In this document: positions 438 to 29,436 of the stretch, in pieces
Position numbering within the stretch: position 1 is the stretch's first letter
Layout: each line of letters starts with the position of its first letter
DNA from: Candidatus Peregrinibacteria bacterium CG1_02_54_53
GTDB lineage: Bacteria > Patescibacteriota > Gracilibacteria > Peribacterales > Peribacteraceae
Direction of reading: 5' to 3'
Assembly: GCA_001872575.1 (NCBI GenBank)
Contig: MNWP01000002.1
Coordinates: 1 to 32,149 of the forward strand
Length of the DNA stretch: 32,149 nucleotides
The notes under the pieces: generated by a model
Databases searched by the model: none
What the model was told of the DNA's origin: nothing
The model's input: the letters and a program-made list of their open reading frames with translations, nothing else
Program-made: the position numbers and the translations under genes

Positions 438-567
438 CGCTGCCTGAAGCCAAAGTGTTGATTCCATTCATCGAGGGGAACACCTGTTCATCACATCGAA
501 CAAAATGTGAGTAACGGTTTTTCTATTTCAATCGTCAAGCCATCACAGATGCGCTCAGATGCAACAA

Positions 568-576
568 TGGTACGAT
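568..576 (+). promoter_or_regulatory. Possible extended -10 promoter for the Cys-rich operon
   Basis: TGGTACGAT is an extended -10 element and closely resembles the TGGTACAAT before the gene at 15503. No good -35 is visible. It would give a leader of about 20 bases that is almost all pyrimidine just before the ATG at 604. Confidence 0.35.
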
Positions 577-603
577 TTCCTAAATTCTTTTCCGCTCTCT
601 CTC

Positions 604-3600
604 ATGGTCTCAAAGCGCACCGTCATCCTTGGAGTATTTTCTTTGAGCGTCGCCGCCGCATTTGCCGGAACGCTCTGGAACCTTCAGGGAACGAATATCC
701 GGGGGCAAATCGCCTCAGGAACGTCAATGGTCGTCGACGACGGCGATGCGGGATTTACTTCGACCGGCCAGGGCTGGCAGCGTTTTCAGCACTCTCTGGG
801 ATATCAGGGAGACATTCTTGCGCCATCGAGTATCGCGGACAAATCACTGTCTGCAACATGGACATTCTCAAATGTAACGGCCGGACAATACAAATTCTTC
901 GTCACCTTTAAGGCCTACAGCCTGCTGACGAACAAAGCGCCGTTCACGATGAAAGACGGTGCAACGACACTGGGATCGTCAACCGTCAATCAGAAGACCG
1001 ATCCATCCGGTAACGCATATGACGGGAAAAACTGGGTTCTGCTCGGAACGTACACGGTGAAAGGTCCGACGGTCTCGATCACACTTTCTCGTCCGGAGGA
1101 TCTGACGATCAACGGCGTCATCGCAGATAGCGCACGTATTGAACGCGTTGCCATGCAGCCTATGGCTTCGGGGCTTTCCCCCACCCTCGAAACTACGGGA
1201 ACGAACAACGTTTGTCGTGCCGGATTCACCCGTGTCGAGGGCGGCAGCTATCCGTTCATCACGTGTTCGAATTTCTGCGGAGGATCGTGCAATGCGGAGG
1301 ATTACTATCTGCTGAGCGGGTCGACTGCCTGCTGTAAATGCGGCATCAGTCCGTGGTGTGCTTCGTCATCTGCTGCTGCAAATCATGAGGCGGCACCGAA
1401 TCCGGATGACGGTATGATGGCGGATATTCCGCCTGTGGAAGAGCCGGTCATGCCGGCCGAGATCTACGAGCCCGAGATGCCCGCGGATATTCCAATCGTG
1501 GAGGAGCCGGTCATGCCGGCTGAGATCTACGAACCGACTGTCGAACCGGCAGAGCCAGAAATCGGATACATGCCGGCCGAGATCTACGATCCTTCACTTG
1601 TGGGATCAGGCGTGGAATACGACAATCAAATCTGCACTCCCGCTTCTTCTTCCAACGTTTGTGCGGCAGGCGGAGGAAATTGGGATTTTTCTCGTCGGTG
1701 CTGCATCTGCAACGCTTGGAATATGATTTTCAATTCAACAACAAACAGTTGCGACTGCCCCCGAAATGCTTCGCTGGTCACGGATCCGATGACGGGACAG
1801 CAAGGTTGCTGCCCCAATGGCACCTCTTTGGATTGTACCTATCCCAGCTATTGCACTTGCGAACCCATCCAGTGTCCGCCCGGATTCTACGTCGGACCGA
1901 ACAACACATGCATGCCCCTTTCGGTGTGCGGTGACGGATATCTGGAACGCGAAGGATCTCCCCGCGAGATCTGTGAGACCGGCACGAACGAAGGATGTGC
2001 TCCCGGTCGTACGTGTATCGGTTGTACCAGCTGTGGACTGTGCGGCAACACCATCGTCGAGCGCGGCGAAACCTGCGAAGCCGACTACTCCTGTGCAAGC
2101 GGAAGCGCCTGTCAGGATTGTCTGTGCACCGCATCATCCACGCATCTCACGGCAAACATGATTTCCACACTCGATAGCACCAGCCCCGGCTACTCCGATT
2201 ATACCTCTCCGCAAGATACGCAGGTTGATTCGTGGACTCTCGCCATTGAGCCGCAGAATACGTACGACGTGTACGTCAAACTGAGTCGAATCTACTCCGA
2301 TCCTTGTCCCATCATCAGCTATTGGCGCGTGTACGACGGCAGCCGACAGGTGCGTCCTCTCAATATCGAATACGGCAACTATCTCTGTTCAACGTGGCCG
2401 GGAAACAATGTGCAAGGACAACAGGAAGCATGGGTGAACCTCGGAAAGGTCGTGGCATCTTCTTCTTCGTTGCGCATCGAACATGTTCCGCCTCCGACAC
2501 CGGTGGGGCAACAGCCGACGATCCCTGTCTTCAGGCCGAGTGCCGTGCGCGTTGTGAAACAATTTAACATTGCGGATCCCGCCCCCATCGGCGTCACTCT
2601 GATCGACAACGGCGATCTGGGCTTTCGGGCAATGGGAGGAACATGGAAAGAGCGCTCACGTTCCATGCCCGATCCCTCGGTCATCGGTCCGATGACAAAT
2701 CCCCTCTTCGATGATGACATCGTCCTCGAATACACCACTTCCACCTCATCGGGTCCGATCTCCAGTTGGAGCTTTACTGTCTCTCCGGGTCGCTATCGTG
2801 TTTTGGTGTCATACGGCAAGCTCTCTGCAACGAACTTCATCAACAAGAACGCCATATACTCCATTCGTGCCGGAACCGCTGCACAGGCCGCTTCTGAAGT
2901 GGGGCGCGTAACGGTGGATCACTCGTATTCGCCCAATGGTCCGATGTACCGATTCGTAACATGGAAAGATCTGGGCACCTACACCGTCACCGGCAATCGT
3001 CTCTCCGTCGTACTCACCAATCCCTACGGCTTGAGTTCCGATGCCATTCGCATCGAACAAATCGGCGGCCCCGGTTCCTCGGCACAATCGTCTTATTGGA
3101 GTGCAACATCGTCACAGGGCATGAACTGCTCTACGTTGCCCTGGCTGCAGTGCACTGCCGACTTCCAGTGCCTGGTCGATTGTTCCAACGGAGAATGTAC
3201 CGGAATTGATGTAATCGATTGTCCTATCGGCACTGTTCCTGAGTACACGGGAACCTGCGGCAATGATCTGTGTCGCAGCAAATGTGCTCGGTGCATTCCG
3301 GTCACCACTTCTTCACGCTCGTCTTCATCGGCCGCTTCTCAGGCACTGACGTGCAACACTCCACCATGGCAGGCGTGTGACAACGGATTCACCTGTCTTT
3401 CACAGTGCCCCAACGGGCAGTGCTTGTCGCAGAGTGACATCGACTGCCAGCCGGGGTACATAGCGCAGTACTTCGGTACCTGTGGCAATTTCCTCTGCGA
3501 GGGAAAGTGTGCACGGTGCCTTCCAGGCACAACTTCTTCGCGTTCTTCTGCGGCCTCTTCGGCGATCGCCTGCGCCAGAGAAGGAGAAGTGATTACCGAA

Positions 3601-6012
3601 CTGAATTTGCGACTCTGTTGCGATGGCCTCAGTGCCCTGCCGAACATTCAACCCGATGCCAACAATCAATGCAGCGGTGCTTCGTTGAGCAGAATCTGCG
3701 GGCGGTGCGGCGACAATCAGTGCGGAACGGGGGAGAACTTCTGTAACTGTCCCGATGACTGTCCGCGGCCGATCTGTGGCGACAACCGACTCGACACCGG
3801 CGAGCAATGTGACGGGTTGCAGTATCCCTGCCCGCTCGGCCAGGTATGCACGAATGGATGCCAGTGCGCCACGCAACCTCCCAGCGCGATTCAGTGGGAA
3901 ACCGTGGGTGATTCATATCTCATCAGCACGCTCAGTGATTACGCACTCTTCGGTCACGGTTCCTACCTCTACCTCGTGGGAGGCATGGGGTTCTGGGGAA
4001 CGACACGTGATGAACTGCGCTCAACCGACGGACTGAGTTGGAGCAGAGTAGCCTCGCTGCCACAGTCGCTCTCGAATACCGCCTATTGGCAAGATAATGC
4101 AGCTGCCCTTCTTGTGGGCGGCTTGACGAGCACATCGAGTGCGGTGGACTGGGCCCTCGAAACGACGAATCTGCAGACGGCAGGCTTTCAATCGAGCCCG
4201 AAATATACGCTTCCGAGCCCGCGCTCCGACGGCGCACTCCTTCGCATGGGGAGCCGGACGTACTACTTGGGCGGCTACGGCAAAGGCAATACGCTGGGCG
4301 GATTCCTCTTGAGTTCGCTCTTAGGGTCGCTCGTGAGTCAGACAATCTCTTCGACTCCATCGAAAGAAATCTACGTGCACGACGGAACCCGATGGACGCG
4401 CGTGCAGCCCGACCTTCCGTTCTCCGTTACGGAAAATGACGCTTTCACCATCGGCAATCGGCTCTTTATCATTGATCGTTCGACTCCCCGCAAAGTGTAC
4501 TCGTCGTCCACCGGAACATCCTGGTCACAAGTCGCGACACTTCCGTCAACGACGGCGAAATCCGAATTCCTGAAACCCATCATGCACAAGGGTGCCATCT
4601 GGCTTATCGGCACATCCGGCACCTTCGCGGGATCGGCTGTCGCCACGACGGATGGATTGCAGTGGGTGACTGTCGCCGGAGCCTTCCCGGCGAATCTCGA
4701 AGATTTCAACCCGGATGCAGTTGTTTCGTTCCAGGATGAAATTTGGCTGCTTGGTTCCGTAGCCGACTACTATGCAGGAGGCAATGCCCGCAACGGCAAA
4801 GTGCTCCGTACCGGCGCTGCCGGCGGTCCGTTCTGCGGCGACGGTCACGTGCTTCCCTCCGAGCAGTGCGACGATGGCAATACCATCCCCAGTGACGGAT
4901 GTTCCAACTGTCAGATCGACAGTGGCTGGACGTGCACGGGTTCTCCGAGTCGCTGCACGAGAGTCTCGAGCTCCTCTTCTGCGTACTCCTCTTATAGTTC
5001 GGCCCAATCGTGTGCGCAAACCGGACAGTCGGTGTTCAGTTCGCCGCAGTTCGGTCCCACGACATGCTGCAGCAAGAATGATGGCATCAAGCCAAGTGCA
5101 GTGCTTGTAGGAGACCAGTGCGTTGAACCGAACACTGTTGCCGGCACCTGTGTGGCCAACTGGTGGCAGACATGCGGCGACGGTACGTGTAGCAGTGCAG
5201 AAGACAAGTGTACGTGCGAAGAAGATTGCTTTGTCACCTGCACACCCGCCGGAAAGACCCATGCCGTTGTTCCGAATGAACAGTGTTGCTCGGGTCTCGT
5301 CGGTGTGAATCCCGGCGCTGTTCCGCAGGCAGATGGCCAATGTCCGACGATTCTCCCTGTCGGCGCGGAACTCTGTACGAACTGCGGCAACGGGACGTGC
5401 GAACAGTGGGAAAATTACTGTAACTGTGCAAAAGATTGCCTGGCTCCCTGTGCCCAGAACGGCGAGAGAGTCTTCGGTTCGTCACAGTTCGGTCCCACCA
5501 CATGCTGCAGCAAGAATGCTGGCATAAAGCCTAACAGTTATCTCGCTGGAGGCATGTGCGTCTCGACGAATGACGGCTCGAAGGGGACGTGTATCGACTA
5601 CTGGTGGCAGACGTGCGGAAACGGTTTATGCGGCAACGGAGAAGATCAGTGCAGCTGTCCTGTGGATTGTGCGGGCGGCGGCCCCACCTGCGGCAACGGC
5701 GGAATTGAGGGATCGGAAAGGTGTGATGACGGAAACAAGAGCAGCGGAGATGGCTGCTCGTACCCCGCCTGTCTGATTGAAGACGGGTGGACCTGCTCCG
5801 GCATGCCGAGCAAATGTTCGCATGTATGCCCTGTCTATTCGGCACCGTACTGCCCCAATGGCGTCTTGGTTCCGCAATTGGGACCGGATAAGTACGGCTG
5901 CCAGCTTCCTCCTGTCTGCTGCAATGGAGCACAGAATCCTTCGGCCCAGTGCTCCCTTACTCTCAAATGCAGCCAGGGTTCCTGCGTCATCTCTTCGTGT
6001 TCTTGCAAGTAA
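604..6012 (+). CDS. Giant secreted Cys-rich multidomain surface protein (about 1802 aa)
   Basis: I chose the ATG at 604 because it begins a clean signal peptide (MVSKRTVILGVFSLSVAAAFAG); an upstream in-frame ATG at 559 adds only hydrophilic residues. In order: a golvesin C-terminal-like beta-sandwich (about 42-182, starting VVDDGDAGF, ending IADSARIER), a Cys-rich block, a Pro/Glu repeat (277-330), more Cys-rich modules, a second beta-sandwich (516-647), a second golvesin-like domain (663-821), two similar Cys modules separated by poly-Ser linkers, a kelch-like beta-propeller (1097-1409), then DUF4215-type repeats (CGDG...EQCDDGN...GDGC pattern) and two copies of a Cys module containing FGPTTCCSKN. 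All this suggests an extracellular, disulfide-stabilised adhesin or carbohydrate-binding protein. The function is inferred from domain types only. The next gene follows after 21 bases and shares modules. Confidence 0.85.
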   Translation: MVSKRTVILGVFSLSVAAAFAGTLWNLQGTNIRGQIASGTSMVVDDGDAGFTSTGQGWQRFQHSLGYQGDILAPSSIADKSLSATWTFSNVTAGQYKFFVTFKAYSLLTNKAPFTMKDGATTLGSSTVNQKTDPSGNAYDGKNWVLLGTYTVKGPTVSITLSRPEDLTINGVIADSARIERVAMQPMASGLSPTLETTGTNNVCRAGFTRVEGGSYPFITCSNFCGGSCNAEDYYLLSGSTACCKCGISPWCASSSAAANHEAAPNPDDGMMADIPPVEEPVMPAEIYEPEMPADIPIVEEPVMPAEIYEPTVEPAEPEIGYMPAEIYDPSLVGSGVEYDNQICTPASSSNVCAAGGGNWDFSRRCCICNAWNMIFNSTTNSCDCPRNASLVTDPMTGQQGCCPNGTSLDCTYPSYCTCEPIQCPPGFYVGPNNTCMPLSVCGDGYLEREGSPREICETGTNEGCAPGRTCIGCTSCGLCGNTIVERGETCEADYSCASGSACQDCLCTASSTHLTANMISTLDSTSPGYSDYTSPQDTQVDSWTLAIEPQNTYDVYVKLSRIYSDPCPIISYWRVYDGSRQVRPLNIEYGNYLCSTWPGNNVQGQQEAWVNLGKVVASSSSLRIEHVPPPTPVGQQPTIPVFRPSAVRVVKQFNIADPAPIGVTLIDNGDLGFRAMGGTWKERSRSMPDPSVIGPMTNPLFDDDIVLEYTTSTSSGPISSWSFTVSPGRYRVLVSYGKLSATNFINKNAIYSIRAGTAAQAASEVGRVTVDHSYSPNGPMYRFVTWKDLGTYTVTGNRLSVVLTNPYGLSSDAIRIEQIGGPGSSAQSSYWSATSSQGMNCSTLPWLQCTADFQCLVDCSNGECTGIDVIDCPIGTVPEYTGTCGNDLCRSKCARCIPVTTSSRSSSSAASQALTCNTPPWQACDNGFTCLSQCPNGQCLSQSDIDCQPGYIAQYFGTCGNFLCEGKCARCLPGTTSSRSSAASSAIACAREGEVITELNLRLCCDGLSALPNIQPDANNQCSGASLSRICGRCGDNQCGTGENFCNCPDDCPRPICGDNRLDTGEQCDGLQYPCPLGQVCTNGCQCATQPPSAIQWETVGDSYLISTLSDYALFGHGSYLYLVGGMGFWGTTRDELRSTDGLSWSRVASLPQSLSNTAYWQDNAAALLVGGLTSTSSAVDWALETTNLQTAGFQSSPKYTLPSPRSDGALLRMGSRTYYLGGYGKGNTLGGFLLSSLLGSLVSQTISSTPSKEIYVHDGTRWTRVQPDLPFSVTENDAFTIGNRLFIIDRSTPRKVYSSSTGTSWSQVATLPSTTAKSEFLKPIMHKGAIWLIGTSGTFAGSAVATTDGLQWVTVAGAFPANLEDFNPDAVVSFQDEIWLLGSVADYYAGGNARNGKVLRTGAAGGPFCGDGHVLPSEQCDDGNTIPSDGCSNCQIDSGWTCTGSPSRCTRVSSSSSAYSSYSSAQSCAQTGQSVFSSPQFGPTTCCSKNDGIKPSAVLVGDQCVEPNTVAGTCVANWWQTCGDGTCSSAEDKCTCEEDCFVTCTPAGKTHAVVPNEQCCSGLVGVNPGAVPQADGQCPTILPVGAELCTNCGNGTCEQWENYCNCAKDCLAPCAQNGERVFGSSQFGPTTCCSKNAGIKPNSYLAGGMCVSTNDGSKGTCIDYWWQTCGNGLCGNGEDQCSCPVDCAGGGPTCGNGGIEGSERCDDGNKSSGDGCSYPACLIEDGWTCSGMPSKCSHVCPVYSAPYCPNGVLVPQLGPDKYGCQLPPVCCNGAQNPSAQCSLTLKCSQGSCVISSCSCK
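1432..1593 (+). repeat. Pro/Glu tandem repeat in coding sequence
   Basis: Three to four imperfect units built on EEPVMPAEIYEP recur; the DNA behind them is repeated too (the string ATGCCGGC[CT]GAGATCTACGA occurs three times). It probably forms an extended, acidic spacer between a golvesin-like domain and the Cys-rich modules. Confidence 0.7.
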
Positions 6013-6033
6013 TTCTCTCCCCTTAAGCTTCTG

Positions 6034-9000
6034 ATGTCCTCCCTTCACCTGCGCTGGTCATCCCTGCTCCTCCCCCTTGGCCTCTTTGCAATTATCGCGG
6101 CGGTCATCGTCACCTTCAGATCGCCCACTCCCTGGACAGCGCAGACCACGTCGGCCGCCACCTGCGGCAACGGCAAGGCTGATGCGGGAGAAAACTGCAT
6201 GGAACCGTTTCTCGGTACCTGCTCCGGATCTCAAGAGTGCATTCAGTGCCGATGTCAGACGCCGAATATGAGCTTCCGTTGCGGCAACTTGTATGGCCAA
6301 ACGGGCGGGTGCCGGAATGCGGGACAGGCATGCATTATTACCTGCAATAACAACCGCCCTATCATGGGCATATGTGACGCCAACAAAAACTGCTACGGCT
6401 ATTGCAATAACGGCAGATTAGACCCGGGGGAAGAGTGCGATACCGGAGATAACCTTAATAGTGCAGCGTGCAATGAGTGGTGCAAAATCCGCTCAGGCTG
6501 GACATGTACGGGATCTCCCTCCCACTGCACCCTGACTCCGACTGCAGCTTCGTCGTCTGCCGCTGCCGCATCGGCGGCCATGGCCAATCGAGAGGATATT
6601 GTGCTCGATAACACGGACCGCGGTTTCATGTCGTACACCGGCACATGGTCGGTAAGTTCGGTCGGCTATGGAGGTTCACAGCATGTTCATGCTGCCGGCT
6701 CGCAGGACCCAAATCGCCCTCTCGAATGGGGCGGATGGGGTGTCACCAGAGTGCCGGAAGGCAGGTACGGTATCTACGCTACATGGGAACCGGGTTCCAT
6801 ATACTCCAAGAAAGTCACCCTTGAGATCGACCGTTCGAGAGGGCTCGTCTCCGCACCATCAGAAAACAACCGATGGACACGGGCCACCATCAACCAGCAG
6901 AGTGCCCCTTCCGCCAGTTGGACATGCAATGGTAGAAAATGGCAATACTTCGGAAATCTGACCATCTCCGGAGACTACAACTACGTCGGTGTCTTCATGT
7001 ACGCAGAGAACGGCGCTCCCAGAAACTCCCGGTTCGCCATGGATGCCTTCATCCTCGCACCATCCGATCGCAATCCCGTGTGCTACGAGGAGCCCGTGTG
7101 CGGCAATAACACGCTGGAAGGATCGGAAGAGTGCGACGGTACGGCGGGTTCGTGCCCATCAGGTAAAGCCTGTAATGACTCATGCTTCTGCCAATCAACA
7201 GGGCCGGTTTGTGGCAACGGCTCGCTTGAGAACAGCAACACTCAGACCCCTGAGACCTGTGACGACGGCAACGTCAATCCAAACGACGGCTGTTCCGCGC
7301 AATGTGCGATTGAATCCGGATGGACCTGTAGGTCGGTTTGCACCTCGGTGTGCCGAAGTATCTGCACAAGAATCGTACAATCTTCTTCGAGTAGCGTCTC
7401 TGGCGGCATCGGACAGGAAGAAGTGACCTTCGCCCGCCAGTACACGAACGTCTACGGCAATCGTGCCTCACTTTCGTGGAGCCCCGATCAGCGCTACGTC
7501 GCCTATACGCGCAGACCAAGTACCCAGGCTAATGAAGCGCTGTACCTGCTCGATACACAAATGCTTACTCGCCGGGAAATTCCGGCAACGATCCAGAATT
7601 ATCGCAGTTTTTGGCAACCCCATGTCCTCTTGGATGGTCGCGCGGTTGGCGTACGCGAGTTCATGTCCTATGGCGATACAGACAACATGACATCTTCTAT
7701 GTGGATCTATGACACGACTACAAAGCAACGAATACTCATCGCTTCCGTTCTCGCTCCGGGGAGCACCGGCAAACAGGAGGCTTTCACTCGCGATGCTCAG
7801 CACGCCGCTTTCCTCTCGCAATGGACCCTGGGCGCGTCGGGGTGGACACCGGGTTACGGAGGATCGCACGTGTACTTCTGGCGACGATCGACGGGACGCT
7901 TCGAGGAGGTCACCGGCCTCGACGATTCTGCCGTGGTCGATGACGTGCGCTTTGTGGAATTACCCGGCGCTTCCGGTCGCTTCATCTTCTTCTACCTTTC
8001 TCCCTCTGCCGGGGTCAGTACCGGTCAGTACAAACTCTACGACACACTCACCGGCGAGCTGTACACGGTCTACAGTTTTGAAGGAGCAACGCAGATGGCG
8101 GAAGACATCCTTGGGCAACCGACACAATCCTCGTCCAGCTCCCGACAGTCCTCGGTGAGTTCCTCTGCAACTTGTGCAGAGTCCGGTCAGATCGTGTACG
8201 CCTCTCCTGCTCTCGGCCCCACAGCCTGCTGCAGCAGTAATGACGGTATCAAGCCGTTGAGCTGGTTACTGGGAGGAAGGTGTCAATCGCCCATCAGCAG
8301 CGTCGCCGGCTCATGTGTGAGTGGCTGGTCACAGATGTGCGGAAACGGCCAATGCGATAGCAAAGAGGACCAGTGCACCTGTCCTTCGGATTGTCACGGC
8401 AGCGCTCCCGCCTGTGGCGACGGACAAGTACTTTCACCCGAACAGTGCGACGACGGCAACATTCTCAATGGGGACGGCTGCTCCAATTGTCGTATCGATA
8501 CAGGGTGGTCGTGCACGGGCTCACCAAGCCGTTGTACGGGAATGATGAGCTCATCCAGTTCTGTTCGCCCCGCCTGTGGCAATGGCAAAATTGAAGGATC
8601 GGAACAGTGCGAAGTGGGCATCGTGTGCCCGCCCATCAACTGTCTCGTTGCACCCTGTCCACAGCAACGCTGTGATTACGCAACGTGTTCCTGCGAAATG
8701 ATCTGTCCGGATATTTCCGTTCCCACATGTGCAGGCGGAGTGCTCTTTCCGCAGATCGGCACGGATGAGAACGGATGTCAGCGTCCTCCCGTCTGCTGCG
8801 AAGGTGCTGCCAGCGGAGGTCAGTGCACCACCAATATGAGCTGCACGAACGGCAAGTGCGTAGTGGATTCATGTTCGTGCAACATGGAGTGTGCCGCACC
8901 AACGCCTCCCCTCTGCCCCGGCGGAGTGCTCTTTCCGCAGATCGGCACGGATGAGAACGGATGTCAGCGTCCTCCCGTCTGCTGCGCAGGCGCCGCAAGC

Positions 9001-10101
9001 GGAGGTCAGTGCACCACCAATATGAGCTGCACGAACGGCAAGTGCGTTGTGGATTCATGTACGTGCGGGTACGGTGCTGCTCAGATTTCGTCCCAGTCAT
9101 CGCAGGCATCCAGCACTTCGGTGAGCGGTCAGCTCTACTCCGATATCATCTACGGCGAAGTCATTCCCCAACCCAAACTCAAGCTCACCATCGACGGCCC
9201 CACGTACGGACAGATCGGCACTCCCTATACCCTAACTGCAGTCGTCGAAAACACGGGTGATCTCATCGATATCGCAACGGAATTTACGATCTCACACATC
9301 TTCAGCAAGCCCACAACTGTTTCAATTCCTCAGGACTGCAGGGAACACCGCCCCTCCGGCGGACAGTCAGGTTATCCCGTGTACTTCACCTGTACCGTGC
9401 CCGCCATCACCCCGGCAACTCCCGGTCACAAACTCTCTTTTCCCTTCACGTTTGTTCTCAATTACCAGGCCGGCTATTGCCCTCAGTCTCAAACCTCGAT
9501 GATCTATGAATTGAAACCCATTGTCATCCGACAGAGAACCCCCGTGGGCAACATCATCAACCACAATATGGGCGGTCAAAAAGTACCGTTGCTCTATACG
9601 CACCGATGCGATTCAAGTTCGAGCAGTAAGAAAATCGCCGTCTGCGGCAACGGCATTATGGAACTGCCGGAGTGGTGCGACGACGGCAATACCGCCGCTG
9701 GCGACGGTTGCTACAAGTGTCTGACGCAGGGCGGATTCTCCTGCACCAAGGTGGTGGGAAAGAAATCGATCTGCACGCGAACACAGTGCGGTAACGGTAT
9801 CGTTGACACTGGAGAGGTGTGTGATGATGGCAACGTGGTCGGCAACGACGGCTGCGGCGGGGACTGTAAAGTGGAACGTGGATTCTCCTGCGTCATCTTC
9901 AAAGACCAGCCCTCTCGCTGCAGTAGGGGAACATGCGGTAATGGCCGGTGGGATCTGTACGAAGACTGCGACGACGGCAATAAGAACGGTGGCGACGGAT
10001 GCAGTGCGGCCTGTAAGTACGAATCGGGCTGGGTTTGCCCGGGCTACGGATCGCCGTGCATCCGATCCACAACGTTTCCGACGCCTAAAATCACGTATTG
10101 A
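6034..10101 (+). CDS. Second giant secreted Cys-rich protein (1355 aa)
   Basis: The N-terminus is a signal peptide or membrane anchor (LLLPLGLFAIIAAVIVTF). Then come Cys-rich modules, a DUF4215-type repeat (about 125-165), a golvesin-like beta-sandwich (187-350, starting IVLDNTDRGF), two further DUF4215-like units, a TolB/WD40-like beta-propeller (463-686, with SLSWSPDQRYVAYTRR), a Cys module shared with the upstream protein (GPTACCSSNDGIKP), a near-identical 62-residue tandem repeat, a CARDB/DUF11-like beta-sandwich (1035-1192), and three C-terminal DUF4215 repeats each with CDDGN. Poly-Ser linkers separate modules. It lies 21 bases after the upstream gene and is almost certainly co-transcribed. 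A surface or secreted partner protein is likely. No catalytic site is recognisable. Confidence 0.85.
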   Translation: MSSLHLRWSSLLLPLGLFAIIAAVIVTFRSPTPWTAQTTSAATCGNGKADAGENCMEPFLGTCSGSQECIQCRCQTPNMSFRCGNLYGQTGGCRNAGQACIITCNNNRPIMGICDANKNCYGYCNNGRLDPGEECDTGDNLNSAACNEWCKIRSGWTCTGSPSHCTLTPTAASSSAAAASAAMANREDIVLDNTDRGFMSYTGTWSVSSVGYGGSQHVHAAGSQDPNRPLEWGGWGVTRVPEGRYGIYATWEPGSIYSKKVTLEIDRSRGLVSAPSENNRWTRATINQQSAPSASWTCNGRKWQYFGNLTISGDYNYVGVFMYAENGAPRNSRFAMDAFILAPSDRNPVCYEEPVCGNNTLEGSEECDGTAGSCPSGKACNDSCFCQSTGPVCGNGSLENSNTQTPETCDDGNVNPNDGCSAQCAIESGWTCRSVCTSVCRSICTRIVQSSSSSVSGGIGQEEVTFARQYTNVYGNRASLSWSPDQRYVAYTRRPSTQANEALYLLDTQMLTRREIPATIQNYRSFWQPHVLLDGRAVGVREFMSYGDTDNMTSSMWIYDTTTKQRILIASVLAPGSTGKQEAFTRDAQHAAFLSQWTLGASGWTPGYGGSHVYFWRRSTGRFEEVTGLDDSAVVDDVRFVELPGASGRFIFFYLSPSAGVSTGQYKLYDTLTGELYTVYSFEGATQMAEDILGQPTQSSSSSRQSSVSSSATCAESGQIVYASPALGPTACCSSNDGIKPLSWLLGGRCQSPISSVAGSCVSGWSQMCGNGQCDSKEDQCTCPSDCHGSAPACGDGQVLSPEQCDDGNILNGDGCSNCRIDTGWSCTGSPSRCTGMMSSSSSVRPACGNGKIEGSEQCEVGIVCPPINCLVAPCPQQRCDYATCSCEMICPDISVPTCAGGVLFPQIGTDENGCQRPPVCCEGAASGGQCTTNMSCTNGKCVVDSCSCNMECAAPTPPLCPGGVLFPQIGTDENGCQRPPVCCAGAASGGQCTTNMSCTNGKCVVDSCTCGYGAAQISSQSSQASSTSVSGQLYSDIIYGEVIPQPKLKLTIDGPTYGQIGTPYTLTAVVENTGDLIDIATEFTISHIFSKPTTVSIPQDCREHRPSGGQSGYPVYFTCTVPAITPATPGHKLSFPFTFVLNYQAGYCPQSQTSMIYELKPIVIRQRTPVGNIINHNMGGQKVPLLYTHRCDSSSSSKKIAVCGNGIMELPEWCDDGNTAAGDGCYKCLTQGGFSCTKVVGKKSICTRTQCGNGIVDTGEVCDDGNVVGNDGCGGDCKVERGFSCVIFKDQPSRCSRGTCGNGRWDLYEDCDDGNKNGGDGCSAACKYESGWVCPGYGSPCIRSTTFPTPKITY
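8734..9066 (+). repeat. Near-identical 186-bp tandem repeat inside the coding sequence
   Basis: Bases 8734-8880 and 8920-9066 are almost identical (147 bases each, period 186, 62 codons). Each unit encodes a Cys-rich module beginning GGVLFPQIGTDENGCQRPPV and ending in a VVDSC[ST]C block. The high DNA identity points to recent duplication. A diverged third version ends the neighbouring protein encoded at 604-6012. Confidence 0.9.
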
Positions 10102-13992: not shown

Positions 13993-14397
13993 CTACACCG
14001 GTTTGCTCTGTGCGATCGCATTCAGAACGCCATTCACAAATTTTCCGCTCTCGGATGTTCCGTACTCCTTCGCAATTTCAATGGCCTCATTCATGATGAC
14101 GGCAGGGGGTGCTTCTTTGAGCATGAGCAATTCGTACGCTCCGACGAGAAGCACGCAGCGCGAAATCGGATCCATGCGTTCAAGGGACCAACCGGGTGCG
14201 TGTTTCTGAATGGCATTCCTGAGAGCATCTTCCTGCTCCGTAATACCCAAAAGCAGAGCTTGTGCAAACGACTCATCCATCTCACCCAAACCCTCTGCGT
14301 TACGCGAAAGCGACTCCACCTCGTCGCACGGCCTCCTTTCGCGCTCGAAGAGCGTCTGCATGACGGCAATCCTGGAGAGGTGACGGCGACGAGCCAT
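13993..14397 (-). CDS. nusB: Transcription antitermination factor NusB
   Basis: NusB binds BoxA RNA with S10 and supports antitermination of rRNA operons. The 134-residue protein begins MARRRHLSRIAVMQTLFERE and has the family pattern AP..SLERMDPISRCVLLVGAYELLMLKEAPPAV followed by INEAIEIAKEYGTSESGKFVNGVLNAI. A longer reading from 14424 lacks family support. The ATG at 14397 follows a pyrimidine-rich leader (GTTCTTTCCGTTCTCCT) and lies 33 bases after the small ribosomal-like gene. The rnc gene follows with at most a short overlap. Confidence 0.95.
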   Translation of the reverse strand: MARRRHLSRIAVMQTLFERERRPCDEVESLSRNAEGLGEMDESFAQALLLGITEQEDALRNAIQKHAPGWSLERMDPISRCVLLVGAYELLMLKEAPPAVIMNEAIEIAKEYGTSESGKFVNGVLNAIAQSKPV

Positions 14398-14430
14398 AGG
14401 AGAACGGAAAGAACAACGTGACAATGACGA

Positions 14431-21987: not shown

Positions 21988-22608
21988 CTATCCGCGAATC
22001 ACCTTCTCCACCTCCTGTACCGTTATTTCAAGCGCTCCGTCACGATTCACCACGCGCGCCGTACACAGATCTGCGTCCTGTAATTCTTTGTTCATGCTGG
22101 CAATGCGTCGCTGCAGTTCTTCTTCTTCAATCGGCGCGCGTTTGCGGATGCGCTCAATAAGACCTTCTCGGCTCTCGGGCAGAATGAAAATCGAAACGAG
22201 TGGAAAACGTGCCTCCTCGCCCGAAAAGAGAGCATGCGTACGAATACTGTGAAAACCCTGAATATCCACTTCACGCACAACGGTTCTGCCTTGTGTTAAC
22301 GCAGGAATGATCTCTTCTTCGAGAGTGCCGTAACGCGATCCTTCATGCACCTGCGCCCACTCAAGCACCTTTCCCCTTGCAACAAGCTCATCGAATTCGG
22401 TATTCGAGAGAAAGCGATAGAGATCGTCACTCTCTCCTGATCGCTGTTTGCGGGTAGTGGCGCTCCGCGGAAATACAAACTCAGGATGGAGCTTTTTTAA
22501 CTCCAAAAGCACCACGCTCTTACCCACGCCACTCGGCCCGATGATGAGCACGAGCTTGCCCTTTGGAGCACTGGATAATGCGCCTGTAATGCGGTTGGAA
22601 GAGATCAT
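21988..22608 (-). CDS. gmk: Guanylate kinase
   Basis: GMP kinase makes GDP from GMP and ATP. It has the P-loop GPSGVGKS near residue 25, the GMP-binding PRSATTRKQRSGE, then SRYGTLEEEI and VDIQGFHSI, and the lid region ESREGLIERIRKRA. I chose the ATG at 22608 (MISSNRITGALSS) because TAGGAT ends ten bases upstream; an ATG at 22620 adds four residues. Length is about 206 aa, normal for the family. The intergenic region to the right carries a divergent plus-strand promoter. Confidence 0.92.
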   Translation of the reverse strand: MISSNRITGALSSAPKGKLVLIIGPSGVGKSVVLLELKKLHPEFVFPRSATTRKQRSGESDDLYRFLSNTEFDELVARGKVLEWAQVHEGSRYGTLEEEIIPALTQGRTVVREVDIQGFHSIRTHALFSGEEARFPLVSIFILPESREGLIERIRKRAPIEEEELQRRIASMNKELQDADLCTARVVNRDGALEITVQEVEKVIRG

Positions 22609-22637
22609 ACCCTCGCGCATCCTACCGCATAGGACGG

Positions 22638-22666
22638 TTGTCTGACCATGGTAAGCGTGCTATACT
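22638..22666 (+). promoter_or_regulatory. Promoter facing the hairpin-rich region
   Basis: TTGTCT, an exact 17-base spacer and an extended -10 (TGCTATACT) make a strong sigma70-type promoter. Transcription would start near 22673. No start codon lies 6-10 bases downstream, unlike the promoters of protein genes in this window. Confidence 0.7.
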
Positions 22667-22672
22667 GACTAG

Positions 22673-23262
22673 ATTTGTTCTTTAACATTCCCTGTCCTTC
22701 ATTGAGCGCAGGGAGCAGTGAGAAGTGACACCGCGATTGTACGGCTTCGGTGGCTTTATCGCTCTCGTCGTCCGTACATCTCGGATCCTCCTGAAGATCT
22801 TCTTCAGGCCCCGCACATTTCTGCGTCCGCGCAGAAGTGTGCGGGGTCAGTCACTTCTCGCTCCTCCCTGCCCTTCTCTGCACTCCGTGCAGAACACGGT
22901 TGACCACCGTGCTTGTCCTCCGAAGCCTCGGCGAAGGAGGACCACGCTGCCCGCCCGAACGATCCATTCGTTCCCATGCGGGTCCGCCCTCATCCGCTCG
23001 TTCGGATCGGGCGGGGGGCCTTAGGGTTCCGGCAAACACAAACATTCCCCGCTCCCGGGGAACTATCGGGAGGCCGATGCCCGAGCTTCGGGCTACCACC
23101 AACACAAACACTGGTGCGCGCCCATCTAGCGCGTACAGGACAGGGGGCCAGACCCGGTCACTCTGGAACGATCTCACGCACATTACACTCGTGCATGAGA
23201 TCACGGGGCACTCGCCTCTTGCGTTCCACAGGGAACATGAGGGGCGGGTGCCCCACTTTTAT
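22673..23262 (+). ncRNA. Candidate large structured RNA of unknown family (about 590 nt)
   Basis: Behind a strong promoter lie about twelve consecutive stems. A 21-position helix pairs 22709-22729 with 22850-22870 (one C-C mismatch, one G-U). It encloses three stems: 22738-22744 with 22772-22778, 22790-22797 with 22801-22808, and 22809-22825 with 22830-22846 (17 positions, loop TCCG). Further stems follow at 22877-22893, 22895-22911, 22915-22942, 22950-23015, 23045-23062, 23065-23078, 23079-23093, 23114-23136, 23148-23166 and 23170-23202. Two A/C-rich linkers share AACACAAACA. A final 50-base hairpin (23205-23254) is followed by ACTTTT, like a weak terminator. I see no RNase P, tmRNA, SRP or rRNA signature. 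Some stems resemble palindromic repeats, so a cluster of repeats rather than one RNA is the main alternative. Confidence 0.5.
22915..22942. repeat. Palindromic repeat bounded by GTCCTCC/GGAGGAC
   Basis: GTCCTCC and GGAGGAC pair around an inner GCC/GGC stem. Similar palindromes bounded by TCCTCC/GGAGGA occur near the tRNA genes at 24720-24756 and 24792-24827. Confidence 0.6.
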
Positions 23263-23267
23263 AAGGA

Positions 23268-23375
23268 CTATTCTTCTCCCTTCTTTTCCATCAACCGCAA
23301 CATGTACGACGTCGCCACCGCAATGAATACGGTGAACCCCAATGTGGCACAGCCCACAACGGCGCCGATGATGAG
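23268..23375 (-). other. Possible micro-ORF with one membrane helix, start unclear
   Basis: On the minus strand the frame reads LIIGAVVGCATLGFTVFIAV, then ATSYMLRLMEKKGEE and a stop: a convincing transmembrane helix with a charged tail. The only ATG in frame is three codons further upstream of an in-frame TGA (23376-23378), reading M-N-P-stop. It may be a decayed gene, may use an unusual start, or may be chance. Confidence 0.25.
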
Positions 23376-23477
23376 TCAAGGATTCATTGAGCCGTCACGT
23401 GTAACCGAAATGAGATTTTTTTCAAGGCTCTGGGAGCCAACTTCTCTTCACGTCATATCGGATGGACATCCGCCCTT

Positions 23478-23792
23478 TTACCGAGATGAATCAAGAAGAT
23501 CTTCACGTACCGAGAAGCTGCCCATGCCGCGATGAGGTTGCTGGTCTATGCAGGAGACAAAAACCCAGATCGTTCCGTCACCCTCCACCCAGAGACCTTG
23601 TACGACACCTTCCCACTCGCGCCTCACATGCGCGACAACATCACCCACTCTGTGACGAACACCAAGAAGTATCTGCGCTTCTTCATGTGTACTGAGTCGT
23701 GCACGCGTCAAACGCCACGGCACGAACGACGTTGTTGATTCCTCCGAGTCGTCCGGAACCTCAACCTGGCCGGCTTCGAGAAGCGCGGACAT
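23478..23792 (-). CDS. Hypothetical protein, 104 aa
   Basis: I do not recognise it. The product starts MSALLEAGQVEVPDDSEEST and contains a compact segment with alternating hydrophobic residues (AQILLGVRHRVGDVVAHV, then GLWVEGDGTIWVFVSCIDQQ), suggesting a small beta-rich or alpha/beta domain. It follows the methyltransferase gene by 21 bases on the same strand, so it is probably its operon partner. An overlapping plus-strand frame (23532-23738) is a weaker candidate because it has no promoter or partner. Confidence 0.5.
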   Translation of the reverse strand: MSALLEAGQVEVPDDSEESTTSFVPWRLTRARLSTHEEAQILLGVRHRVGDVVAHVRREWEGVVQGLWVEGDGTIWVFVSCIDQQPHRGMGSFSVREDLLDSSR

Positions 23793-25188: not shown

Positions 25189-25611
25189 TTACAGTATCTG
25201 CTTCCACTTTCCCTTCAGCGCCTTAATCGTTTTAATTTTTTTCCGAGCCGCGAGTTGATGTTCCCACAGACGGATGACGGTCCAACCTTCGGAACGCAAC
25301 CGAACGTTGACCGCCTTATCTCGAGCGATATTTCGTTCGATCTTTGCGACCCAAAATACTTGATTCGATTTAATATTCCCTTTGCGGATTTTCCACTTAT
25401 ATCCATGCCAAAACTCACTGTCGAAGAACACTGCTATTTTCTTCGACTTATTGGCGGCATCGGGCTTTCCAAAAATTCCCTTTGGGTGTTTTCTGAATGT
25501 AAATCCAGCCTCTTTCAAAATCTCCCAGCCAATCTGTTCCAAACCAGTGAGCTTGCCCTTGATATTGGACATTATTTCACTGCGCCTTCTCTTGGAAAAG
25601 ATGTCGGCCAT
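25189..25611 (-). CDS. vsr: Very short patch repair endonuclease (Vsr)
   Basis: Vsr nicks DNA at T-G mismatches left by deamination of 5-methylcytosine. The 140-aa protein has DIFSKRRRSEIMSNIKG at the start, GKPD with Asp51, then FFDSEFWHG with Trp68 and His69, and IERNIARDKAVN; the numbering equals that of E. coli Vsr. The zinc-site cysteines of E. coli Vsr are missing (HGYKW for HGHxC, WEHQL for WECxL). It is divergent from the restriction gene, sharing a short promoter region, and the methyltransferase whose damage it would repair lies 0.9 kb away. This composition makes an R-M-V cassette. Confidence 0.92.
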   Translation of the reverse strand: MADIFSKRRRSEIMSNIKGKLTGLEQIGWEILKEAGFTFRKHPKGIFGKPDAANKSKKIAVFFDSEFWHGYKWKIRKGNIKSNQVFWVAKIERNIARDKAVNVRLRSEGWTVIRLWEHQLAARKKIKTIKALKGKWKQIL

Positions 25612-25643
25612 AGAAACGGGCTTACGCCAGCTGCTATTAATTG

Positions 25644-25649
25644 TATACT
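25644..25649 (+). promoter_or_regulatory. -10 element of the restriction endonuclease gene (divergent with vsr)
   Basis: TATACT ends eight bases before the ATG at 25658. On the opposite strand the same palindromic region reads TACAAT, which could serve vsr, so the two divergent genes may compete for polymerase. No good -35 is visible on either strand. Confidence 0.5.
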
Positions 25650-25657
25650 CCGCTCAT

Positions 25658-26533
25658 ATGGATGCAGAATTTGTCGATGCCAAAGGCGGGGTGAAGAAAG
25701 AAGCCGCAATCGGAGCAAGATTCGCCAATGAATTCCCTGAAGGGAATATCGAGGAATTGCTTCAGTCCATTCAAGCAACCGTTATCAGTTATGCCAAGAA
25801 GAACAAATTGAAGGTTCCTGCTCAGGCTGCCTTCAACAATGCTCGTGGCGATTGGTTGGAATTGATATTGGCTGCCCGTTTCTGGAATGCGGTGATCGAC
25901 AGGAATATCGACATGCTTGTGCTGCGCTTGCCGAATGTTGCAAAAATGGAGTTTATTAAAATCTTTGATGAGGAAGCTCAAGAAAGAATTCAATCAGGAT
26001 TGATGAGAACTCTTGAAGAGCATGATGCAAGACTGGATATGTCCAACCCTGATTTAATCGGAGTTCGCATAGACAGAAGCTCTTTACCTCCTGAGTTTCA
26101 TAAACGTCTGGACAGTCTTGGGGCAGCCGATGCACATATGCTCTTCGATGCCTATAAACATCTGATCGGAAAATGTCCGTACAACAGCATCCTGTTCGGG
26201 GTATCTATTAAAACTTCACTGCGTGGCGACAGGAGATATCAAATTGTGCATGAAGGAAGCATAGTAAAAGCCTTCATTGCACATTTGCAGACCCGTTATT
26301 GGGATACCTCATTTGAAACCAAGTTCTACGGCGCGGTTACGGATAATGTCAGTGACAACGACCACGAGATATTCAGAACAGCAGCGACACACAGCATCGT
26401 CAATGTATTCAGTCCATCAGTTCGAGCTGTTGATAAGGTCTATCACATACCGACTACGGATGACGTTGATGATATGATCGAGAAAATAATCAATGCAGCA
26501 TCAAACGCGCCTCAACTAAACAAGGCTTCATAG
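25658..26533 (+). CDS. Type II restriction endonuclease, Cfr10I/Bse634I/NgoMIV family
   Basis: The family has a permuted active site PD-x(46-55)-(S/T)xK-x(12-13)-E. Here Pro131-Asp132, 50 residues, Ser183-Ile-Lys185, 13 residues, Glu199 fit exactly, in CPYNSILFGVSIKTSLRGDR then RYQIVHEGS. Glu68 (RGDWLE) fits the additional family glutamate. Known members cut CCGG-core sites (RCCGGY or GCCGGC) as tetramers; the site here is inferred, not seen. I chose the ATG at 25658 because the -10 element ends eight bases upstream; an ATG at 25601 would overlap vsr. Its 3' end overlaps that of the convergent methyltransferase by 44 bases. Confidence 0.85.
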   Translation: MDAEFVDAKGGVKKEAAIGARFANEFPEGNIEELLQSIQATVISYAKKNKLKVPAQAAFNNARGDWLELILAARFWNAVIDRNIDMLVLRLPNVAKMEFIKIFDEEAQERIQSGLMRTLEEHDARLDMSNPDLIGVRIDRSSLPPEFHKRLDSLGAADAHMLFDAYKHLIGKCPYNSILFGVSIKTSLRGDRRYQIVHEGSIVKAFIAHLQTRYWDTSFETKFYGAVTDNVSDNDHEIFRTAATHSIVNVFSPSVRAVDKVYHIPTTDDVDDMIEKIINAASNAPQLNKAS

Positions 26534-27611
26534 CTTCTCCTATTGCCCTGGCCAGCAGAGGAGGAACGGCATTGCCAATTTGCACGCCGACGGATTTCAG
26601 GTTTCCAACAAAAACGAAGTCCTTCGGAAAAGATTGAAGAGCGGCCATCTCCAATGTATTCAGTCCTCTGTTTTCCGTGGGATGAATATAGCGACCCTTG
26701 GTCGGATTGTAGCCGCTTGTACGAATTGTGATGCTGGGTTCATTCAACTTGAGACGGCCGAACGTGTCTTGACCTTGATGTTTGCCGCTTTTCCAACAAT
26801 CGGGGAGATGTTTCTTCGGAAGATCATGGAAATTGCCTCCGGGCGGTACCATTTTCATTCTGTTTACCATTTCCAAGGAATGATTCATGCCAAGACAATC
26901 AGGCCTTAATAAATCTTGCACCGTAATTTTCTTAAAAGCTTCACCGACGGTAACCCATCGTTTTGTTTCAGGTACGTCTCCGAAGCGTGAATGTGTCGGC
27001 TTTGGGAATCGAGGTTCAACACCCAGACAGCCCAGCACAATCACTCTCTTCCTCTTTTGGGGAACACCATAGTCGGCTGCAATCACTGTTTCGCATTTTA
27101 CTTTATATCCCATAGCTTCCAGCTCTTTTTGCAGCTCATCGAGCACTCCGTGTTGTTTGATGCCTTCGACATTTTCAAAAATGATACCTAACGGTCTTAT
27201 TTCATAAACCAACCTCAAATAGTCTCGAAACAGTCGGCCACGAGCATCGTTCACACCCTTTCTGTTCCCCATGTTACTGAAGGATTGGCACGGCGGACCG
27301 CCGACCAGCAAATCTACCTGACCTTTGGCCAAACCCGCTCGCTCCAGTAGTAAATCCGACGTGATACAAGTGACGTCTCCGTCAAAATCATCAAGAGGGT
27401 TCCAATCGGGTCTGTTTCGCCTCATTGTTTCTCTGAATACAGGATCTATTTCCACGCATGCTCTAGTGCTGTATCCAGCCATTTCCAATCCTAAGTCCAA
27501 TCCACCTGCTCCGCTGAACAGGCTGACTACATTGAAAAATCGAACGGGCATTTTTTCGCTTTTGACTTTCTTAGTCAGGGGAACGACGGGTGAAAGTGTC
27601 GTGTATGTCAT
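26490..27611 (-). CDS. DNA cytosine-5 methyltransferase of the R-M system
   Basis: This modifies cytosine within the recognition site and protects the host from the partner nuclease. Motif I is FSGAGGLDLG (residues 32-41), motif IV GGPPCQSF with Cys108, motif VI FENVEG, motif VIII QKRKRVIVLG, and motif X VQIGNAVPPLLARAIGEAM. The target-recognition region (about residues 220-320) is short, as in type II enzymes. The ATG at 27611 is backed by a strong promoter ending eight bases upstream. Two GTACTATGA words overlap the -10 and start, a possible site for autoregulation. The gene is convergent with and slightly overlaps the restriction gene. Confidence 0.93.
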   Translation of the reverse strand: MTYTTLSPVVPLTKKVKSEKMPVRFFNVVSLFSGAGGLDLGLEMAGYSTRACVEIDPVFRETMRRNRPDWNPLDDFDGDVTCITSDLLLERAGLAKGQVDLLVGGPPCQSFSNMGNRKGVNDARGRLFRDYLRLVYEIRPLGIIFENVEGIKQHGVLDELQKELEAMGYKVKCETVIAADYGVPQKRKRVIVLGCLGVEPRFPKPTHSRFGDVPETKRWVTVGEAFKKITVQDLLRPDCLGMNHSLEMVNRMKMVPPGGNFHDLPKKHLPDCWKSGKHQGQDTFGRLKLNEPSITIRTSGYNPTKGRYIHPTENRGLNTLEMAALQSFPKDFVFVGNLKSVGVQIGNAVPPLLARAIGEAMKPCLVEARLMLH

Positions 27612-27619
27612 AGTACTTC

Positions 27620-27648
27620 ATAGTACGAAGAGGGTGTATGATTGTCCA
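27620..27648 (-). promoter_or_regulatory. Promoter of the methyltransferase gene with repeated GTACTATGA
   Basis: On the minus strand TGGACA, a 17-base spacer and TACTAT end eight bases before the ATG, predicting a leaderless message. GTACTATGA occurs twice in 20 bases, over the -10 and over the start codon, which could bind the methyltransferase or a controller. Confidence 0.65.
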
Positions 27649-27783
27649 CCCATTCTTCTTGAAAAGAACGTATTCCATTGTGCCTTATCATTTTTGCTAA
27701 AGAAATTGAACTATCTTTGGAATGTATGCATGGCATCAATAATGCTGGCAAGCTTATGAAAACGCTTACTTTTCAGGTACGGA

Positions 27784-29436
27784 TTAGAACGGAATTGTCA
27801 TTTCTTCCGTCACGGTAACTTCAACAATCGGCGTAGAGGGAGAAACGGCTGACTCGGTGAGAAACAATTGTATTTTCTGCAACTCGATAGGGACAACTTC
27901 GGTCGGGACAGTTGATGCCCAATTATAAGCGTCCGCGACTTTATGCTTCTTTCTGAAGCTGCTGCCTGGGAATTTGTCAGACAAAAAATTTTCAAGATTC
28001 TGGGGTATTTCAATGCCTTTTCCCTCCTGTTGGGCGAACGCGAGGTTACCAAAGTCGTCTGCAATCGTTTCGCCATCGTTATCTTCATCCCACATTGCAA
28101 AGAAGTCCGTGATACCGAGAAGTCGACATACCCCGATGAAGTACAGGACTCCCGTCTTACCTCCGCACGAAATTACCGAGACACCTTCCTTGTCGAGATT
28201 AATGCCCCAACGTTCGCATAGGGTATTGACCAAAATTTCGTCGGAATCTCCTTCTACCAATACGACTTTGCGAGCAAAGAACAGTTCGTTCCTCTCGGTA
28301 TTAAAATGCGTGTATATCCTGAAGCGGCCTTCTCGCAGAGATTCTGGTGTGATTGCGGGGCTTTTTTCGAGCTTGTACGTTCCTCGGTCTTTATTCTTCA
28401 ATAGCATCTCGATTTCATCCGCCCTCTGAGCATCAACGAAATTGGGATTGTGCGTGGTGTAGAAGATTTGCGTGCCGTCACCTTCATCGGGGTACGCCAA
28501 ATTCGTGAAACATTTGAATAATTGCCGCTGCGCTTGCGGGTACAAATAAATCTCTGGTTCCTCGATGGCCAAGATGGTCTTGTTTTTCATTATTTGCGCG
28601 TAGGTTCTGAAGAGAGAAAGCAGCACCAAATTCTGTACACCCGAACCCAACTCATGCACGTTGAATATCCCCAGTTCTTCCTTCCCGATGATTTGAATGG
28701 TTTTGTAGTAGAAAAGCGGGTCATAAATCTCCAAATCCAAGCTGAAGTTGTGCGCCAGTCCTTGGGTGTAGTCGCGGCATACTTCGATAAACGCATCTTT
28801 GAATTTCTTGTAATCCAAGCTGTCGTGGAACTCCGATTCGAGAATGCTTTTTGGCTGTTCCATGGCTTCCCTGAATCGTTTCTCCAAATCGCTAAGATGT
28901 TCTCCTGCCTGCCGCTTCCTGAAATTCTCGTCTATCTTCTTCAGTATCTTCCCAAGCAGCGTCCACTGGCTGACGGACATCTGTTTTTCTAGGCTTCGGT
29001 CTGAAGGAATGTAGATGAAACTCACTTGGTCACGGGCAAGACCCGAACCCCAAAACTCTCGTCCGTCAGAATCAATGACCAAAAACTTTGTCGCTGCGAA
29101 CGATACACTTTCATTTTTCGTATGAGTAAGTTGAAAACTCTGCGGGTAACAGGACATTTTTCCCGCCCCTCTCTCGGTTGATGTTAATTTGCACAATTCC
29201 AGTGATTCCTTGAACCAAATTTGAATAGTGATTGTTTCGTCAGTTTTCCTCTCAAAGAAATCATCCTTCGTAAAAGCCCTGTCTCCCGGGTACGTCTCAC
29301 CCAATAGTATTTCCATTGCTTTCAGTATGTTGGTCTTTCCCGCGCTGTTCGCCCCAATCAGCCCACAGAGATGCTTGGGTTCAATTGTCAGTTCCTTGAT
29401 GGAACGAAAGTTTTTGATGAATATCTTCTCAATCAT
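27784..29436 (-). CDS. OLD family ATP-dependent endonuclease (ATPase plus TOPRIM)
   Basis: The 550-residue protein starts with an SMC/RecF-like head: MIEKIFIKNFRSIKEL, Walker A GANSAGKT (28-35), signature-like NVHELGSGVQNLVLL (259-273), Walker B ILAIEEPEIYLYP (288-300) and the TTHNPNFVD switch. The TOPRIM nuclease domain follows with VVLVEGDSDE (391-400) and WDEDND (449-454). OLD proteins are phage or foreign-DNA defence nucleases. Gabija systems pair a similar GajA with the UvrD-like GajB, and no such helicase is near, so a stand-alone class 1 OLD is the better call. The start has an extended -10 (TGCTAGACT, 29458-29463) 21 bases upstream. Confidence 0.88.
   Translation of the reverse strand: MIEKIFIKNFRSIKELTIEPKHLCGLIGANSAGKTNILKAMEILLGETYPGDRAFTKDDFFERKTDETITIQIWFKESLELCKLTSTERGAGKMSCYPQSFQLTHTKNESVSFAATKFLVIDSDGREFWGSGLARDQVSFIYIPSDRSLEKQMSVSQWTLLGKILKKIDENFRKRQAGEHLSDLEKRFREAMEQPKSILESEFHDSLDYKKFKDAFIEVCRDYTQGLAHNFSLDLEIYDPLFYYKTIQIIGKEELGIFNVHELGSGVQNLVLLSLFRTYAQIMKNKTILAIEEPEIYLYPQAQRQLFKCFTNLAYPDEGDGTQIFYTTHNPNFVDAQRADEIEMLLKNKDRGTYKLEKSPAITPESLREGRFRIYTHFNTERNELFFARKVVLVEGDSDEILVNTLCERWGINLDKEGVSVISCGGKTGVLYFIGVCRLLGITDFFAMWDEDNDGETIADDFGNLAFAQQEGKGIEIPQNLENFLSDKFPGSSFRKKHKVADAYNWASTVPTEVVPIELQKIQLFLTESAVSPSTPIVEVTVTEEMTIPF

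Follow-up and report, generated by a model that had tools for sequence, protein, structure and literature searches.

Genomic context and transcription signals

The window analyzed here is a stretch of 32,149 nucleotides of DNA from Candidatus Peregrinibacteria bacterium CG1_02_54_53, in which positions 22638–23262 hold, as judged from the sequence, an independent noncoding RNA gene composed of a promoter, a boxA, a structure of ~585 nt and a terminator hairpin (Table 1). The guanylate kinase gene gmk lies divergently beside it and outside the RNA, and the next recognizable gene downstream is on the opposite strand. A coding gene was rejected, as none of the ORFs overlapping the RNA region had a Pfam match, in line with the original prediction that no frame gives a family-like protein.

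Table 1. Features of the RNA gene and of its surroundings (positions in the window).
Feature	Position	Strand	Remark
gmk (guanylate kinase)	21988–22620	−	divergent neighbor, outside RNA
Promoter	22638–22666	+	−35 TTGTCT, 17 nt, upstream TG, −10 TATACT
boxA GTTCTTTAACA	22677–22687	+	perfect match to GYTCTTTAANA
P1, 5' strand CCCTGTCC	22690–22697	+	pairs with 23138–23145, closes the RNA; MFE, swap test
P2, 5' strand	22708–22729	+	covariation
Stem in P2 junction	22731–22784	+	MFE
Hairpin in P2 junction	22789–22808	+	
17-bp hairpin in P2 junction	22809–22846	+	TCCG loop; length differs among species
P2, 3' strand	22850–22871	+	covariation
P3 hairpin	22895–22911	+	loop 22901–22905 (UGACC) kisses P6
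Inserted dispersed-repeat hairpin TCCTCCGAAGCCTCGGCGAAGGAGGA	22915–22942	+	variable arm
Two hairpins	22950–23014	+	variable arm
Single-stranded linker AAACACAAACA	23034–23044	+	
Pseudoknot PK1	23045–23072	+	23046–23050/23057–23061 and 23052–23056/23068–23072
P5 hairpin	23079–23093	+	GCCCGA-GCT-TCGGGC; 99% of cells paired
Single-stranded linker AACACAAACAC	23101–23111	+	
Pseudoknot PK2	23112–23134	+	23112–23114/23122–23124 and 23116–23120/23130–23134
P1, 3' strand GGACAGGGGG	23138–23147	+	MFE, swap test
P6 hairpin	23148–23166	+	loop 23156–23160 (GGUCA) kisses P3
P7 hairpin	23170–23202	+	MFE
Terminator-type hairpin, ACTTTT tail	23205–23258	+	hairpin 23205–23254, then ACTTTTAT
Vsr endonuclease	25189–25611	−	
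Cfr10I/Bse634I-type restriction enzyme	25382–26533	+	
C5 cytosine methylase	26490–27611	−	
OLD-like ATPase with TOPRIM	27784–29436	−	

The promoter and the 50-nt 3' hairpin had both been foreseen and are present, the former as the sole sigma-70-like site within 22400–23500. Transcription is predicted to start at ~22673, and boxA begins ~4 nt downstream. The boxA at 22677 fits without mismatch a published gamma-proteobacterial consensus (PMC5725501). Perfect matches to this consensus number seven in nearly the whole assembly, and only the copy at 22677 stands directly behind a −10. Within the family, which from its named genomes is Ca. Peribacteraceae, a TATAMT-type −10 is located immediately 5' of boxA in 38 homologues, and in 31 of these 38 with a recognized −10 the boxA string starts 9–10 nt past it. 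In the window, the perfect consensus at 22677 lies shortly after the promoter, as is asked of boxA-dependent transcripts. The window also encodes NusB (13993–14424), and polymerase may be modified at the 22677 boxA as it is on rRNA. No boxA-type sites were found at the RNase P and tmRNA loci in the stretch scanned. A protein-motif scan of the same genome, too insensitive for conclusions, detected no Rho, an apparent match proving to be a histidine kinase; boxA may hence have another purpose than shielding the transcript from Rho. In some other orders a second boxA-like string, CCGCTCTTTAAAAGG, is located 3' of P6 (L178 and L193, divergently upstream of gmk).

Architecture of the RNA

The + strand of 22673–23262 folds with −317 kcal/mol, as compared to −216 ± 8 kcal/mol for dinucleotide shuffles (z = −13.3, 0/100 shuffles equal). 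The − strand is also well folded (z −11), because inverted repeats fold well on either strand, and the strand was hence assigned from the promoter, the terminator and the homologues. In 21 species, the outer eight pairs of P2 are nearly invariant, while nearly every inner pair shows compensatory changes. The original prediction had described this long-range helix with 21 positions (22709–22729/22850–22870) and proposed to look for covariation there; the helix is present with one mismatch (22716 × 22863) and does covary, and the predicted 17-position stem with a TCCG loop lies within its junction. The mismatch, the ninth position of P2, is non-Watson-Crick, A·C or C·C, in 20 of the 21 species.

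For the 98-nt 3' core, a covariance model (R1) was built and 45 family sequences were aligned to it for pair counts. Two-sided changes, or nearly so, were seen at 14 of the 16 R1 pairs. The pairs are formed in 93.1% of cells, as compared to 68.2% after shuffling and 23–48% when slid by 1–3, and although an alignment fitted to the model favors the model, the slid controls are nonetheless far lower. The covariation score is 0.610 versus 0.188, and all five measures exceed those of all 500 shuffles. The A/C-rich linkers are present in nearly all homologues; as predicted, they share a sequence, AACACAAACA, which occurs twice (linkers at 23034 and 23101). Arms other than that of the dispersed-repeat hairpin are gained and lost between relatives. 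H-type pseudoknots were searched with a blind program and tested against shuffles (p<0.05), which PK2 surpassed in 45/53 homologues and PK1 in 24/38, the search window for PK1 being misplaced in several. A class-wide MAFFT alignment of PK2, which misplaces stem 1 in several rows, was left out of the pair counts.

When strands were exchanged between species, the paired fraction of matched versus swapped partners was 0.91 versus 0.61 for P1, 1.00 versus 0.57 and 1.00 versus 0.66 for PK1, 1.00 versus 0.66 and 0.98 versus 0.48 for PK2, and 1.00 versus 0.49 for the contact between P3 and P6 (0/5000 in each case); since this table was segmented by hand, with strands picked by eye for pairing, it speaks for species-specific pairing and is not an unbiased effect size.

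The loops of P3 and P6 are complementary, and P6 lies outside P1. In the family, 23 species have G-C and 8 have A-T as the pair beside the GAC/GTC core of this contact; the exceptions are L030, with C-G, and L070, with a mismatch (counts read by eye from the rows). In other orders the two strands read CCAACTA/TAGTTGG, CCAACA/TGTTGG, AGGCTA/TAGCCT and CGACGA/TCGTCG. Permutations that swap partners, which ignore kinship between species, reached the observed pairing in 1/10000 cases within the family and in 0/20000 outside it with P3 fixed by position; an earlier, noisier version outside the family that used all hairpins gave 72/20000. At the level of predicted structure, a long-range kissing contact between P3 and P6 is thus shown by covariation. 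This contact, the two pseudoknots and boxA are additions to what had originally been described.

Distribution among relatives

Searching 74 family genomes at the DNA level returned full-length or partial orthologues (L003–L006 and others), as well as many scattered copies of the hairpin at 22915–22942 alone (query 275–304, equivalent to 22912–22941). In its own genome this hairpin has two copies, the second at G000:C35:10212–10252. The scattered single-hairpin copies identify this arm as a dispersed repeat and the remainder as an orthologous unit. Hence the alternative raised originally, a transcribed array of palindromes, holds for this one hairpin and fails for the orthologous, covarying rest.

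R1 matches 55 of the 74 Ca. Peribacteraceae genomes at E≤0.1, nearly always once each, and ~50 of the 74 carry a single copy. Six family genomes have no R1 match although gmk was found, and five of them carry a much-diverged element beside gmk, with promoter and boxA. Where the flank is long enough, nearly every homologue has gmk immediately upstream in divergent orientation, while in L060 and L078 it lies downstream on the same strand. An asparaginase gene is often found on one or the other side, and the downstream neighbor differs (asparaginase, gmk, methyltransferase and others).

Outside the family, ~230 genomes of the class gave no R1 match at E≤0.001. A further sample comprised ~41 gmk loci with upstream sequence from other Peregrinibacteria/Gracilibacteria; the ten weak R1 matches over these loci (E 0.013–1.8) all fall at the expected position and strand beside gmk. 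All but three of the loci have A/C-rich linkers within 700 nt divergently upstream of gmk, and most of the fully read loci share one layout, namely a −10, a boxA-like string, a P2 strand, P3, linkers, PK2, the P1 3' strand and P6; a few are short or degenerate (e.g., L164, L165, and L172). In other classes of the phylum, 14/14 gmk loci lacked the linkers. As A/C-rich linkers by themselves count for little where genomes are AT-rich, homology outside the family rests on position, architecture and the kissing covariation, by which the spread of the predicted element through most of the class is well supported. The comparison of relatives beside gmk that had been suggested with the original prediction thus finds the region kept. 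Taken together, the comparisons show an independent RNA gene that is conserved and covarying, has a kissing lock in addition to its two pseudoknots, occurs once per genome and adjoins gmk.

Relation to known RNAs

The search of the window against Rfam 15 gave no match at gathering score, with only weak chance-type matches below threshold, and ten diverged loci gave nothing beyond tRNAs and sub-threshold chance matches; the comparison with Rfam that had been proposed is therefore empty for both sets, including 6S RNA (RF00013), GOLLD, ROOL, and OLE. The hallmarks of RNase P RNA and tmRNA had been noted as missing, and both RNAs indeed map elsewhere in the same genome, RNase P RNA (RF00010) at G000:C19:121504–121951 and tmRNA (RF00023) at G000:C5:30752–31145, while ARAGORN found no tmRNA at this locus. 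The SRP hallmark had likewise been found lacking, and the domain IV motif (GGAA loop, AGCAG) is absent from the element. The SRP RNA models RF00169 and RF01854 had no match in eight genomes (the own genome and seven relatives), and an SRP replacement was hence considered and rejected, as the element has no SRP motif; the absence of SRP from these genomes is only a lead. Motif scans of the own genome for the Ffh/FtsY GTPase, and also for SecA and Rho, were empty, the scans being too insensitive. A phage origin was discarded after 0 matches in 50,697 phage records, and a literature search on the subject found no report of a noncoding RNA from CPR or Peregrinibacteria.

GOLLD occurs in phages and prophages. 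Like OLE, GOLLD and ROOL, which are large ornate bacterial RNAs with kissing loops (PMC12286853), the Peregrinibacteria RNA is big, intricately folded and unclear in function, but it has no sequence or Rfam match to them and is chromosomal beside gmk in one class, present once per genome and led by boxA. It shares with the rRNA operon leader, in which boxA follows the promoter and a leader–trailer helix unites the 5' and 3' ends (PMC10250234; PMC5725501), both boxA behind the promoter and an end-joining helix, yet it contains no rRNA, and the 16S gene lies on a different contig. With tmRNA and RNase P RNA it has in common that it is single-copy, of housekeeping scale and pseudoknotted, whereas both of those occupy other loci of the same genome. 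Being an RNA without a match to any known family, it is, on this sequence evidence, apparently new, and large conserved RNAs of unclear function have precedents in OLE, GOLLD and ROOL.

Proposed function and alternatives

Covariation of the helix, conservation beside gmk and the empty Rfam search bear out the earlier reading as an undescribed structured RNA. The element is very probably a self-contained gene whose product is a trans-acting noncoding RNA, large and stable. RNA polymerase would start near 22673, with boxA emerging at once, and boxA would be expected to recruit NusB–S10 as on pre-rRNA, which would keep the polymerase processive along a long, untranslated and strongly folding transcript. 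P1 would unite the ends, giving one multi-branched domain with P2–P3, the A/C-rich linkers, PK1, P5, and PK2. Across P1, the loops of P3 and P6 pair, as the covariation shows, and so lock the fold; transcription would stop at the 23205–23258 hairpin. In Gracilibacteria/Peregrinibacteria, the folded RNA would most likely have a housekeeping task, either as a ribozyme or as a ribonucleoprotein core; its stability, boxA-dependent transcription and housekeeping function are what we infer. With moderate confidence, it can further be regarded as a housekeeping RNA of the whole class, Nus-controlled, of a complexity near that of RNase P RNA or tmRNA, and either catalytic or a scaffold. Structured RNAs that occur in single copy throughout a class are few in number, and the majority have central parts in translation, RNA processing or transcription.

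Among the alternatives, an extremely diverged 6S, SRP, RNase P or tmRNA would agree with the similar scale and conservation, and SRP RNA did go undetected by two Rfam models in eight genomes; this is nevertheless most unlikely, as RNase P RNA and tmRNA reside elsewhere in the genome, Rfam gives no match to the RNA in either the window or ten diverged loci, and the SRP domain IV motif is missing. Two H-type pseudoknots in tandem and a kissing hairpin outside P1 are moreover a misfit for 6S or SRP RNA. A transcribed array of palindromes that itself has no function is scarcely credible: the hairpin at 22915–22942 is a dispersed repeat and other arms come and go, but the core is orthologous, with compensatory changes and long-range contacts, and occurs once per genome in a constant position.

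The remaining alternatives concern the neighbors and boxA. In several relatives the structured RNA precedes L-asparaginase, as a cis-acting leader or riboswitch for the downstream gene would, but because the downstream neighbor varies, the window's next recognizable gene being on the other strand, and the 3' end carries a terminator-like hairpin, a leader is very improbable. The near-invariant adjacency to gmk could point to a regulator of this divergent gene, for which there is very little likelihood, since divergent genes allow neither overlap nor antisense pairing and gmk is downstream on the same strand in L060 and L078. That the RNA is mainly a boxA decoy, titrating NusB–S10 and thereby tuning rRNA synthesis, is very unlikely even though boxA sits near the 5' end, 9–10 nt past the −10 in most homologues, and some other orders have a second boxA-like string, GCTCTTTAAAA, 3' of P6; a decoy would have no need of ~500 nt of covarying tertiary structure.

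This RNA, which resides in largely uncultured, reduced genomes and has no Rfam relative, would carry the use of boxA beyond rRNA to another large noncoding RNA; a 2017 survey of boxA states that noncoding RNAs were not considered (PMC5725501). Folding that is conserved despite changed letters suggests that its job is probably important, and the fold is defined sufficiently for immediate in vitro probing.

Other features of the window

A restriction-modification and defense island occupies 25189–29436 (Table 1). At 559–10101, tandem giant ORFs of 1817 and 1355 aa, cysteine-rich and with Ser-rich linkers, probably encode surface proteins.
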